A stretch of DNA of 64,000 bases from contig JAFXTC010000038.1 in assembly GCA_017525235.1 (NCBI GenBank), forward strand, positions 26,214-90,213, read 5' to 3'. Made by a program: the position numbers and the translations under genes. This document shows, piece by piece, positions 12,915 through 61,692 of the stretch (position 1 is its first letter; each line of letters opens with the position of its first letter). Origin of the DNA: Bacteroidaceae bacterium. GTDB taxonomy: Bacteria > Bacteroidota > Bacteroidia > Bacteroidales > Bacteroidaceae. The notes under the pieces were generated by a model. The model had not been told where the DNA came from and did no database searches. It saw only the letters and a list, made by a program, of their open reading frames with translations.

Positions 12915-13166
12915 TTACTTATGTCTGTTAGCACGCTTTTTGCGGATATCGGCTTTCATCTTGGCCGACCCGCTACCATGTGCTCCTGTGATGTATTGTT
13001 TCTTCTTAGCCTTGGTCTTTATTTTGCCCTGCTCTTCATGCTTGGCTCCTTTGTTGCCGCCTTTGAAGGTGATGCCGTTAAGAATAACGGAAGCGATGTC
13101 GTCAGACCCACCCCCGCCCCCTCCCATAAGGGAGGGGTGCGCTTGATTGTTATTTTTTTCTCTCAT
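12915..13166 (-). CDS. Doubtful small basic protein, its 5' end built from repeat DNA
   Basis: This 83-residue frame encodes a strongly basic C-terminal half (KTKAKKKQYITGAHGSG...KKRANRHK) and ends 14 bases before the GH30 start. Residues about 10-19 (HPSLMGGGGGG) are simply the translation of the GC-rich inverted repeat at 13105-13140, and the first residues lie over the end of the DUF559 remnant. No in-frame ATG follows the repeat until close to the end. It is therefore either a spurious frame or a small gene whose original start was replaced by the inserted element. I recognise no family. Confidence 0.3.
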   Translation of the reverse strand: MREKNNNQAHPSLMGGGGGGSDDIASVILNGITFKGGNKGAKHEEQGKIKTKAKKKQYITGAHGSGSAKMKADIRKKRANRHK

Positions 13167-13413
13167 GTATTATCTTTATTATAGTTTCAATAACATGCTC
13201 TGTATCAAATATTATTTCTTCATTCGAAAAACGAATCAGTTTGCTCCCATAGAACGGTTTCTGCGTTTGTGGGGTGCTTCCTATTTTGACGAGCTAGGTC
13301 CTTTAACAAAGAATATCTGTCACTCGCTGCCCATTTCAACTCATCATTCATCAATATTTTCTTTGTATTCCCCTTTTATGTCCCCTCCCTCACGGGAGGG
13401 GGCGGGGAGGGTC
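13105..13413. mobile_element. Degenerate element: DUF559 remnant between inverted GC-rich repeats
   Basis: Two GC-rich stem-loop repeats of 34-36 bases, 13105-13140 and 13380-13413, face each other as inverted copies. Both begin at the outer edge with GACCC and run inward through CCCTCCC-loop-GGGAGGGG. Between them lie 239 bases holding the remains of a DUF559 endonuclease-like gene, and little else. The unit sits precisely between the stop codon of the AICAR transformylase and the region upstream of GH30. Solo or paired copies of the same repeat occur at 16676, 52635, 54109 and 61657. The composition suggests a decayed mobile unit; that it ever moved is inference. Confidence 0.55.
13150..13351 (-). 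pseudogene. DUF559-family endonuclease remnant with internal deletion and frameshift
   Basis: On the minus strand an ATG complementary to 13349-13351 starts MNDELKWAASDRY, continuing LKDLARQNRKHPTNAETVLW; this matches the usual N-terminus of DUF559 (Vsr-like PD-(D/E)XK) proteins. That frame soon stops. From 13239 a second frame reads LIRFSNEEIIFDTEHVIETI and ends at the TAA at 13150-13152, which matches the usual C-terminus (RFSNEEV...). The central 50-60 residues with the catalytic core are missing and the two parts are out of frame, so the gene is dead. Intact relatives are about 120 residues. It is tightly flanked by inverted GC-rich repeats. Confidence 0.75.
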
Positions 13414-13418
13414 TCTTT

Positions 13419-14600
13419 TTAATGGTGGAATAGTCTGACACCCGTGAAGGTCATGGCGATACCGTACTTGTCGCAGGTGTCGATAACATGGTCGTCACGA
13501 ACACTGCCACCTGCTTGTGCAATATACTGTACACCACTCTTGTGGGCACGCTCTACGTTATCGCCGAAGGGGAAGAAGGCATCGCTACCCAAACATACGT
13601 TCGTGTTCTGGGCAATCCACTCTTTCTTCTCCTCGCGAGTGAGAGGTTCGGGTTTCTCGGTGAAGAACTTCTGCCATTCGCCATCGGCCAGCACATCCAT
13701 ATAGTCGTCGCTGATGTAGATGTCGATGGTGTTGTCGCGGTCGGCACGACGGATATTAGGCAGGAAGGGTAAAGCCATAACCTTAGGATTCTGACGTAGC
13801 CACCAAATGTCGGCCTTGTTACCTGCCAGACGGGTACAGTGGATGCGACTTTGCTGACCGGCACCTATACCAATGGCTTGACCGTCTTTGACGTAGCACA
13901 CACTGTTGCTCTGGGTGTACTTGAGAGTGATGAGAGCAATGATGAGGTCGCGCTTGGCATCGGCAGGGAAGTCTTTGTTCTGGGTGGGGATGTTTTCGAA
14001 GAGAGCGGGATCATCCAACTTAACCTCATTACGACCTTGCTCGAAGGTGATGCCAAAGACCTGCTTACGTTCTATGGGCTCAGGCTTGTAGGCGGGATCT
14101 ATCTTGATAACGTTGTAAGTACCCTTACGCTTTTCGCGTAGAATCTGCAGTGCTTCTTCGGTAAATTCAGGAGCAATCACACCATCGCTAACTTCTGGCT
14201 TGATGAGTAGGGCCGTTGCCTTGTCGCAGCAGTCGGAAAGAGCAATGAAATCGCCATAGCTACTCATACGGTCAGCACCACGAGCTCTGGCGTATGCACA
14301 AGCCTGAGCACTCAGTTCGCCAATGCTTTCTGGAACGAAATAAATGTGGCGTAGCGTGTCAGAGAGGGGAAGACCAACAGCAGCACCCGCAGGACTAACG
14401 TGCTTGAAGCTTGCAGCAGCAGGCAGACCTGTAGCAGCCTTGAGCTCCTTTACTAACTGCCATGCGTTCAGAGCATCAAGAAAGTTGATGTAGCCAGGAC
14501 GACCGTTTAATACTTCGATGGGAAGTTCGCCTCCCTCCATGTAAATGCGAGAGGGTTTCTGGTTGGGATTGCATCCGTACTTAAGTTGTAAATCCTTCAT
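13419..14600 (-). CDS. Stand-alone AICAR formyltransferase (PurH C-terminal-type)
   Basis: This 393-residue cytoplasmic protein contains only the AICAR transformylase domain, which adds a formyl group to AICAR in the next-to-last step of IMP synthesis. The catalytic Lys-His pair sits in FKHVSPAGAAVG (about residues 63-74). Other family motifs are QSNSVCYVKDGQAIGIGAGQQSR, GSDAFFPFGDN and YIAQAGGSVRDD. The IMP-cyclohydrolase (MGS-like) domain that precedes it in bifunctional PurH is absent, and the first residues (LKYGCNPNQKP) start directly at the transformylase fold, so this is not a truncation at the DNA level. Bacteroidetes often carry such a stand-alone copy in addition to full PurH. It is the last gene of the minus-strand series and ends against the degenerate repeat element. 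Confidence 0.88.
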   Translation of the reverse strand: MKDLQLKYGCNPNQKPSRIYMEGGELPIEVLNGRPGYINFLDALNAWQLVKELKAATGLPAAASFKHVSPAGAAVGLPLSDTLRHIYFVPESIGELSAQACAYARARGADRMSSYGDFIALSDCCDKATALLIKPEVSDGVIAPEFTEEALQILREKRKGTYNVIKIDPAYKPEPIERKQVFGITFEQGRNEVKLDDPALFENIPTQNKDFPADAKRDLIIALITLKYTQSNSVCYVKDGQAIGIGAGQQSRIHCTRLAGNKADIWWLRQNPKVMALPFLPNIRRADRDNTIDIYISDDYMDVLADGEWQKFFTEKPEPLTREEKKEWIAQNTNVCLGSDAFFPFGDNVERAHKSGVQYIAQAGGSVRDDHVIDTCDKYGIAMTFTGVRLFHH

Positions 14601-60930: not shown

Positions 60931-61656
60931 ATGAAAGGAATGAAAGGTATTCTTGGAGCTCTTTCTGTAGCTCTTTTGGTTTCTGGTTGTAACATGAATA
61001 ATACCACCAAGGGTGGTCTTATAGGTGCCGCTGGTGGTGGTGCCTTAGGTGCTGGTCTGGGTGCTGCCATTGGTGCATTGGCTGGCGGTTCAAGCGGTGC
61101 TAAGTTGGGTGCTGCTATTGGTGCCGGAGTAGGTGTTGCCGGTGGTACAACAGCTGGTGTTTTGATTGGCAAGAAAATGGATAAGGCAAAGGCTGCTGCC
61201 GAGGCAGTAGATAATGCTGAGGTTTCAACAGTTACCGATAAGAATGGTCTGGAGGCCGTTAAGGTAACCTTCGACAATGGCATCCTCTTTAAGGTTGGTA
61301 AGAGCGATTTGCAGGCTAAGGCACAAAACTCTTTGCGTCAGTTTGCCAACAATGTGTTGAATGTCTATACCGACTGTGACGTGGCTATTTATGGTTTTGC
61401 CAGCAGTGACGGTTCTGATGAAACCAACCTCACATTGAGCCAGAGCCGTGCTAACTCGGTTCGCGGTTTCTTGACAAATAGTTGTGGTGTAAGCACTTCT
61501 CAGATTAAGAGCGTTATTGGCTATGGCGAGGATCCCCAGTATCTTGTTTACGATGCCAATGGTAAGGAGGATAGAAATGCCAGCCGCCGTGTGGAGGTTT
61601 ATCTGTATGCCAGCGAGGCAATGATTAATGCTGCCAATGCAGGTACTTTGCAGTAA
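60931..61656 (+). CDS. OmpA-family lipoprotein with glycine-zipper segment
   Basis: This 241-residue protein has a lipoprotein signal ending LLVSGC (Cys about 21). Next is a Gly/Ala-rich zipper (GGLIGAAGGGALGAGLGAAIG, read as GGLIGAAGGGAL then GAGLGAAIG), then an OmpA domain with the peptidoglycan-binding motif GFASSDGSDETNLTLSQSRA (short of NxxLSxxRA) and NASRRVEV. It tethers the outer membrane to peptidoglycan. A GC-rich repeat begins immediately after the stop codon. Confidence 0.9.
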   Translation: MKGMKGILGALSVALLVSGCNMNNTTKGGLIGAAGGGALGAGLGAAIGALAGGSSGAKLGAAIGAGVGVAGGTTAGVLIGKKMDKAKAAAEAVDNAEVSTVTDKNGLEAVKVTFDNGILFKVGKSDLQAKAQNSLRQFANNVLNVYTDCDVAIYGFASSDGSDETNLTLSQSRANSVRGFLTNSCGVSTSQIKSVIGYGEDPQYLVYDANGKEDRNASRRVEVYLYASEAMINAANAGTLQ

Positions 61657-61692
61657 GACCCACCCCCGCCCCCTCCCGTAATGGAGGGGAGA
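61657..61692. repeat. GC-rich stem-loop repeat after the OmpA-family gene
   Basis: Starting at the base after the stop codon, this copy shares its first 21 bases (starting GACCCACCCCCG) with the copy at 13105. The GGAGGGG side can form a hairpin and might weaken transcription into mtgA eight bases further on. Confidence 0.85.

Follow-up and report, generated by a model that had tools for sequence, protein, structure and literature searches.

The region at 13105-13413 of the window (the whole stretch of 64,000 nucleotides that was analysed) is, with a probability that we put at roughly 0.78, the relic of a mobile element. Judged from sequence comparison, this element would consist of a hairpin terminal inverted repeat (TIR), a single DUF559 gene and an inverted second TIR, would reside in the coding frame of host genes and would be driven by its DUF559 nuclease. 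Two inverted hairpins flank a decayed DUF559 nuclease gene in this region (Table 1), and the coordinates and content which an earlier note on this DNA had given for the repeats and the broken gene hold. The left TIR reads GACCCACCCCCGCCCCCTCCC-ATAA-GGGAGGGG (13105-13137). The arms at 13112-13137 and 13382-13407 lie 244 nt apart and are complementary at 92% of their 26 nt. Exact hairpins of the form CCCTCCC(N2-12)GGGAGGG occur twice in the window, against a mean of 0.00 across 100 dinucleotide shuffles; chance alone would thus not be expected to yield them in a stretch of 64 kb. The assembly from which the window was taken (G000; 2.6 Mb, 72.7% complete) contains 18 of these exact hairpins, and at E 0.01 no DUF559 match was found in it.

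Table 1. Features of the relic element, its neighbours and a solo TIR copy in the window.
Feature	Position	Strand	Remark
83-aa downstream ORF	12915..13166	-	ATG inside the relic; frame crosses the TIR
Left TIR (hairpin)	13105..13137	+	3' end relative to the nuclease gene
DUF559 3' fragment, 30 codons and stop	13150..13242	-	other frame than the 5' fragment
DUF559 5' fragment, 36 codons	13244..13351	-	aligned to intact L176
Right TIR (hairpin), inverted copy of the left	13382..13413	-	5' end relative to the nuclease gene
Phosphoribosylaminoimidazolecarboxamide formyltransferase (purH-type, NF005492), upstream neighbour	13419..14600	-	NCBIfam match
Solo TIR copy	61657..61689	+	first 21 nt identical to 13105-13125

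The start and the end of a DUF559 protein had been read from the minus strand, out of frame and without the core, and this is what the alignment gives. The 5' fragment encodes MNDELKWAASDRYSLLKDLARQNRKHPTNAETVLWE (minus strand, 13351-13244) and the 3' fragment KLIRFSNEEIIFDTEHVIETIIKIIHERKK (minus strand, 13242-13153; the stop extends to 13150). Compared with the intact neighbour L176, a net of about 182 nt (counted by eye in the alignment), which is no multiple of three, is missing between the fragments, and the missing core is the region that carries the residues D59, E70, D72 and H76, invariant in our alignment A1. The relic is still matched by the DUF559 profile built here, with 23.1 bits. 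Its right TIR starts 5 nt past the stop codon of the formyltransferase gene, and the solo TIR lies directly past the stop codon of an OmpA-family ORF (60931-61656). The 83-aa ORF, for which no Pfam family was found at E 1e-5, reads MREKNNNQAHPSLMGGGGGGSDDIASVI...; element-free species have e.g. MAKFGGDDIDAVI, and there the ATG stands a few codons ahead of GGDDI.

The gene between the TIRs belongs to DUF559 (PF04480 in Pfam), which in its Pfam entry is still of unknown function, though it is a common domain. Against PDB, the nuclease profile scores best with 3hrl (Endonuclease-Like Protein, E 2e-26) and then with 3r3p ('Mobile intron protein', E 3e-8), the latter of which we take to be I-Bth0305I. 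The closest nuclease records found are MAGs assigned to Bacteroidales, Bacteroidaceae and Prevotellaceae. Most elements with a DUF559 gene measure about 450-600 bp.

The TIR pair belongs to the DUF559 gene. DUF559 is present in 50 of 101 relatives, with several copies per genome in many of them. Flanks were taken for part of the hits (30 loci and 60 stretches); our own profile gave 98 matches, 89 of which are near full length. When 200 nt upstream were aligned to the reverse complement of 200 nt downstream, with a threshold score of at least 28, matched inverted TIRs were found on both sides of 71 of the 82 domains with enough flank (a count that includes the L024 and L063 domains, which are the same DNA), compared with 6 out of 806 positions displaced within these loci. 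A second set, taken from genome contigs after removal of 11 duplicate loci, gave a TIR pair for 54 of 66 domains, against 19 of 1949 controls. The expectation in the earlier note that intact DUF559 genes are enriched for matched inverted copies of the repeat is thus borne out by both sets. No pair reached the threshold for 11 of the 82 and 12 of the 66 domains. In a phylum-wide sample, where 125 of 296 genomes were DUF559-positive at E 1e-10, a TIR pair was found for no more than 15 of the 29 domains that were new (with seven earlier ones included, 21 of 36), against 0 of 203 controls. Outside the phylum, strong TIR pairs were found at 5 of 12 plasmid loci from Cyanobacteriota, Pseudomonadota and Deinococcota, taken out of 35 matched records, against 5 of 72 in the displaced control, and the pairing of DUF559 with hairpins may reach beyond Bacteroidota.

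Within one element, both TIRs match each other, also where the TIRs of different elements diverge. With 400-nt flanks, own pairs have a median score of 49.5, while the upstream flank of one element against the downstream flank of another gives a median of 21 (90th percentile 34, 99th percentile 57). TIRs and nucleases covary in similarity (Mantel r 0.44, or 0.36 when only pairs with different target genes are compared); each value was reached in 0 of 1000 permutations, and the test covers 124 of 129 elements (L016, L022, L024, L048 and L089 were left out). Elements or remnants in which the two ends are of different TIR types (L178/L167, L108, L110) suggest independent replacement of single hairpins. 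Outside Bacteroidota, DUF559 is enclosed by long matched TIRs on a Pseudanabaena plasmid (L346), a Sphingomonas plasmid (L347) and a Deinococcus plasmid (L356); L346 and L347 have two successive hairpins per side.

The unit is found at many loci, with presence and absence between species. At the purH site, 51 loci comprise four with full DUF559, the relic in the window, five with a hairpin only, 40 with neither and one where the site was not found; 'neither' refers to a hairpin threshold of 15 nt, and a 14-nt hairpin is present in two of the 40 (L121, L123). Empty spacers go down to 19 nt (L161), and the nucleases at this site are 70-78% identical to that of L176. In one purH locus (L122) the TIRs are perfect over 33 nt, and a locus with nearly the same flanks (L123) has a solo hairpin instead. 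Since the intergenic DNA of these two loci differs by more than the element, we do not claim an insertion junction from this pair. At the leuC site, nine of 30 loci have a DUF559 element, one a hairpin and 20 neither; in 18 of these 20, the distance from a motif near the end of leuA to the conserved start of leuC does not exceed 52 nt. The empty sites in relatives for which the earlier note had asked are therefore present at orthologous purH and leuC positions.

The unit behaves as a mobile element that, as far as sequence comparison tells, would move but mostly stay. The leuC carriers are spread over several groups of the nuclease tree (129 rows, 106 columns, quick search). In this tree, L061, L190/L207, L205 and L040 are close nuclease relatives at different genes; L061 (at fmt) and L190/L207 (at argB) share an identical 35-nt TIR at a scaled nuclease similarity of 0.81-0.85. 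On the other side, target genes are conserved on the tree, with 30 changes against a mean of 52.6 and a minimum of 48 in 200 shuffles (75 rows, 22 targets), so that much of the distribution is inherited or site-specific and not the result of recent free transposition. Inspection by eye of the flanks of 59 elements showed no target duplication.

The element lives in the translation frame of its host. After removal of identical domains, 127 of 129 distinct TIR-bearing elements had enough downstream flank for a frame test. In 99 of these, an internal ATG opens a frame that crosses the right TIR and continues for at least 60 codons, while a mirror control that crosses the left TIR on the opposite strand gave 11 of 127. 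For the other 28 elements this test gives no frame fusion. The ATG of the fused frame commonly overlaps the nuclease stop codon and often lies within a few nt of it (offsets e.g. -4, -1, -8, -11). The 99 fusions fall into 46 downstream groups, often housekeeping genes (most names were given by eye), the largest being leuC with 21 cases. A Met occurs within the first 8 residues past the TIR in only 7 of the 99, and the downstream gene's own start is usually missing. The right TIR itself codes for a Pro/Gly-rich linker (TPLPREGQGGGS, APSLTGRAGGES and others). In nine fusion examples searched against NCBIfam, the best family match starts at or near the end of the TIR: at residue 20 for leuC (TIR end at 19), 22 for argC (20), 20 for purD (18), 21 for gmk (23), 25 for coaD (23), 27 for argB (22), 23 for fmt (20), 16 for argG (16) and 20 for asnS (22).

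There are also cases where the nuclease is found in frame inside a host gene. These are LeuRS (L020 and L318 by Pfam, L044 and L321 by eye), HsdR (L325 and L323 by Pfam, L329 and L338 by eye), HsdM (L337), Type ISP (L316), MetH (L326) and two sugar-nucleotide genes (L024). In the four LeuRS insertions, which come from several Bacteroidota, DUF559 is located ahead of the editing domain, a recurrent site. DUF559 lies within long ORFs in L317 and L319, too.

TIRs occur without the nuclease as inverted dimers of about 110-150 bp. The dimer pattern was matched in 83 of 139 genomes of the genus; when reversed, the pattern again describes two hairpin arms, and counts obtained with it are therefore no usable control. 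Among the 139 genomes listed, G150 has the most matches (64). Thirty dimer loci were taken and 28 had the match at the centre. In 16 of the 28, an open frame, in any one of the six frames, spans the dimer and extends for 50 codons or more to either side. When 90 codons or more to either side are required on the best strand, 11 are open and in phase, 8 lie within an ORF but look out of phase and 9 lie outside ORFs. Among the in-phase dimers, a simple hairpin test fails on both sides for L286 and L290 and on one side for L289, L295 and L302; L286 has probably matched the pattern by chance. One dimer locus, L297, is open on both strands.

Nine dimer host ORFs were scanned against Pfam. They include MnmG (L301), an M16 peptidase (L295), OEP (L303), PmbA/TldD (L310) and a UPF0004/radical-SAM protein in L294, with another such protein in L296. 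In L299, the ORF at 3-2771 on the minus strand has carA and carB domains in one frame, joined by an in-frame dimer that contributes a linker of about 35 residues, and this fusion has apparently been made by the element. In the genome of the window, an in-frame dimer is located in an altronate/galactarate dehydratase ORF (G000:C7:38056-38168). From 26 dehydratase loci taken, six gave no alignment row; in the 20 rows obtained, the insert is present in 4, absent in 15 and truncated in 1. The insert peptide of the G000 dehydratase occurs at 47 places in 14 genomes, a count that includes the query locus itself in its opposite-strand reading, and 36 of the 47 places are within open frames of at least 200 aa.

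The number of TIR copies is higher in genomes that encode the cognate nuclease. Among 61 genomes (G000-G060), the 20-nt TIR of type A has a mean of 24.4 copies in 5 cognate genomes, after subtraction of the two own copies and with one cognate genome (G010) having none, against 2.05 in the 56 others (one-sided Mann-Whitney p 0.0013). For type B, the means are 11.1 in 7 cognate genomes and 2.7 in the 54 others (p 0.0001). TIR types were assigned by eye, and the p values treat related genomes as independent. Abundance of the repeat in genomes that have no DUF559 gene had been named as the observation that would speak against a link. This is the case for G018, where 34 type B copies were counted and DUF559 gave no match; overall, the repeats are commoner where the cognate nuclease is present. 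G015 and G048 are rich in type A and no type A nuclease was found in them. All three assemblies are incomplete (73-82%).

A Y1 transposase of the RAYT type (PF01797) was considered as a candidate for the general mover of the repeats. Matches occur in 23 of the 61 genomes, covering most of the domain in 8, and the genome of the window has one. Four TIR-rich genomes (G040, G015, G019, G018) have no match at E 0.001, and G043 and G048 have only weak partial ones. With four TIR-rich genomes lacking a match among the 61 searched, this candidate was rejected.

The proposal that nuclease and repeat form a mobile pair gains from the TIR association and from the element-free sites, while for the mover itself we go only as far as to infer that DUF559 moves the repeats. 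In the mechanism that we infer for the cutting, the copying and the dependence of the dimers on the enzyme, the DUF559 protein (PD-(D/E)XK, Vsr-like) would recognise the hairpin and cut DNA. Host break repair would then copy the element in, with some target bases being replaced and not duplicated. TIR dimers and solo hairpins would be non-autonomous copies and remnants. Since a start codon or a segment within the host gene comes from the element, imprecise loss would tend to damage the gene, and this reliance would protect the element.

The distribution could also be produced by a strictly site-specific homing endonuclease that occupies one gene start per lineage, with the hairpins merely aiding repair. 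The match to a mobile intron protein (3r3p) next to 3hrl would fit this, as would the conservation of target genes on the tree, the close relationship of the purH-site nucleases and the lack of visible target duplication. We nevertheless consider it rather unlikely, given that close relatives with the same TIR are found at different genes and that multi-copy TIRs and dimers occur at unrelated genes; nor was an intron or intein recognised in the elements that were read. Continued residence at the same gene starts, where housekeeping genes are read from the element's ATG, would likewise be seen if the elements had been domesticated and linker, hairpin or nuclease now served the host gene. The patchy presence at orthologous sites and the states of decay, including the relic in the window, make domestication improbable as an explanation.

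It is equally doubtful that the hairpins are REP-like sequences moved by another enzyme (RAYT/Y1 or an IS), with DUF559 as a passenger caught between two of them. TIRs do occur without DUF559, some TIR-rich genomes have no matching nuclease that we could find, and the window's own genome has its one Y1 match. However, matched TIR pairs are specific to nuclease lineages and copy number follows the cognate nuclease, and the search for such a mover, which covered Y1 transposases, gave no match or only weak partial ones in the TIR-rich genomes listed above. We regard it as very improbable that DUF559 is here a nuclease of VSP-type mismatch repair, with ordinary terminators or REPs as its neighbours. 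The model for such a role is VsrA from Caulobacter, which has a DUF559 domain and on which the DNA-damage response in cells without ScmA depends; in the sections of the source consulted it is described as a putative VSP-repair protein (PMC12907096). By analogy, this response would fit a nuclease activity of DUF559 proteins in cells. A repair role leaves unexplained why the TIR pairs are matched, why many relatives have several copies per genome and why the insertions are in frame.

We return to the mobile element driven by DUF559 and compare it with known systems. REPINs and their RAYT (TnpA-REP, a Y1/HUH enzyme) consist of inverted pairs of short palindromes, a flanked nuclease gene, and non-autonomous dimers and solos. 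The DUF559 element resembles them in its inverted pairs of short palindromes and in its solo copies. It differs in the enclosed enzyme, which is of the DUF559 (PD-(D/E)XK/Vsr-like) and not the HUH type, and in not being extragenic, as 99 of 127 elements run into the downstream gene and 16 of 28 dimers are in an open frame. The analogy to REP sequences and RAYTs that the earlier note had drawn thus captures the pairing and leaves out the residence in the coding frame of host genes. Classical IS/DDE transposons share the terminal inverted repeats; here no target-site duplication was seen in 59 elements, and the gene between the TIRs is PF04480 and not a DDE transposase. Vsr-like (EDxHD) homing endonucleases such as 3r3p are related by profile and likewise target conserved genes without visible target duplication, but the DUF559 elements have TIR hairpins, no splicing, and several targets among close relatives. 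In phage Aeh1, the free-standing homing endonuclease mobE splits nrdA. There, too, a nuclease gene is located within a working host gene without splicing; the DUF559 elements have, in addition, TIRs, frame-preserving linkers and non-autonomous dimers. VsrA has the same Pfam domain and is presented, in the consulted part of its source, as a putative VSP-repair protein and not in connection with mobility (PMC12907096).

By description, the TIR dimers resemble the Rickettsia palindromic elements (RPE) and other protein-coding palindromes. RPE are palindromic repeats of 105-146 bp that are found in frame in unrelated genes (PMC2229807); they are also given as about 150 bp, with a conserved peptide and with gmk among the targets (PMC10969869, PMC2229807). 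The dimers are palindromic inserts in frame in unrelated genes as well, with a conserved peptide; unlike RPE, they belong with hairpin TIRs at both ends and a full-length form that carries a nuclease. For small bacterial repeats, movement by a transposase has been hypothesised, experimental support being absent according to the consulted sections of PMC2229807.

We found no known class that combines a Vsr-like nuclease, hairpin TIRs and in-frame residence, and, in the open-access papers searched, no publication on DUF559 with hairpins or in-frame palindromes in Bacteroidota. By palindromes and a mobilising nuclease alone, the DUF559 element would be a variant of REPIN/RAYT. Because it lacks the enzyme and the extragenic location of REPIN/RAYT as well as the enzyme and the target duplication of DDE elements, we set it apart, and it is probably a separate class of prokaryotic mobile element, with a Vsr-like PD-(D/E)XK nuclease and frame-open hairpin ends, in autonomous forms of mostly about 500 bp and in dimer forms.

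If this is true, copies of the element can insert into essential genes or at their starts, provide the start codon, add linkers and even fuse neighbours, as for carA-carB in L299. DUF559 would gain a testable role and a substrate. How small palindromic repeats move in protein-coding genes is treated as an open question in the consulted sections of PMC2229807. For the protein-coding palindromes described here there are full-length relatives that carry a nuclease and matching ends, with copy numbers that go with the cognate nuclease, and the element would supply the kind of mover that RPE-like coding palindromes have lacked. Being translated with the host gene and owning its start codon, it would be hard to lose and would give rise to new linkers, N-terminal extensions and gene fusions. 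For annotation, N-terminal Pro/Gly-rich strings such as TPLPREGQGGGS and APSLTGRAGGES call for caution, as they can be DNA of the element and not ancestral protein.
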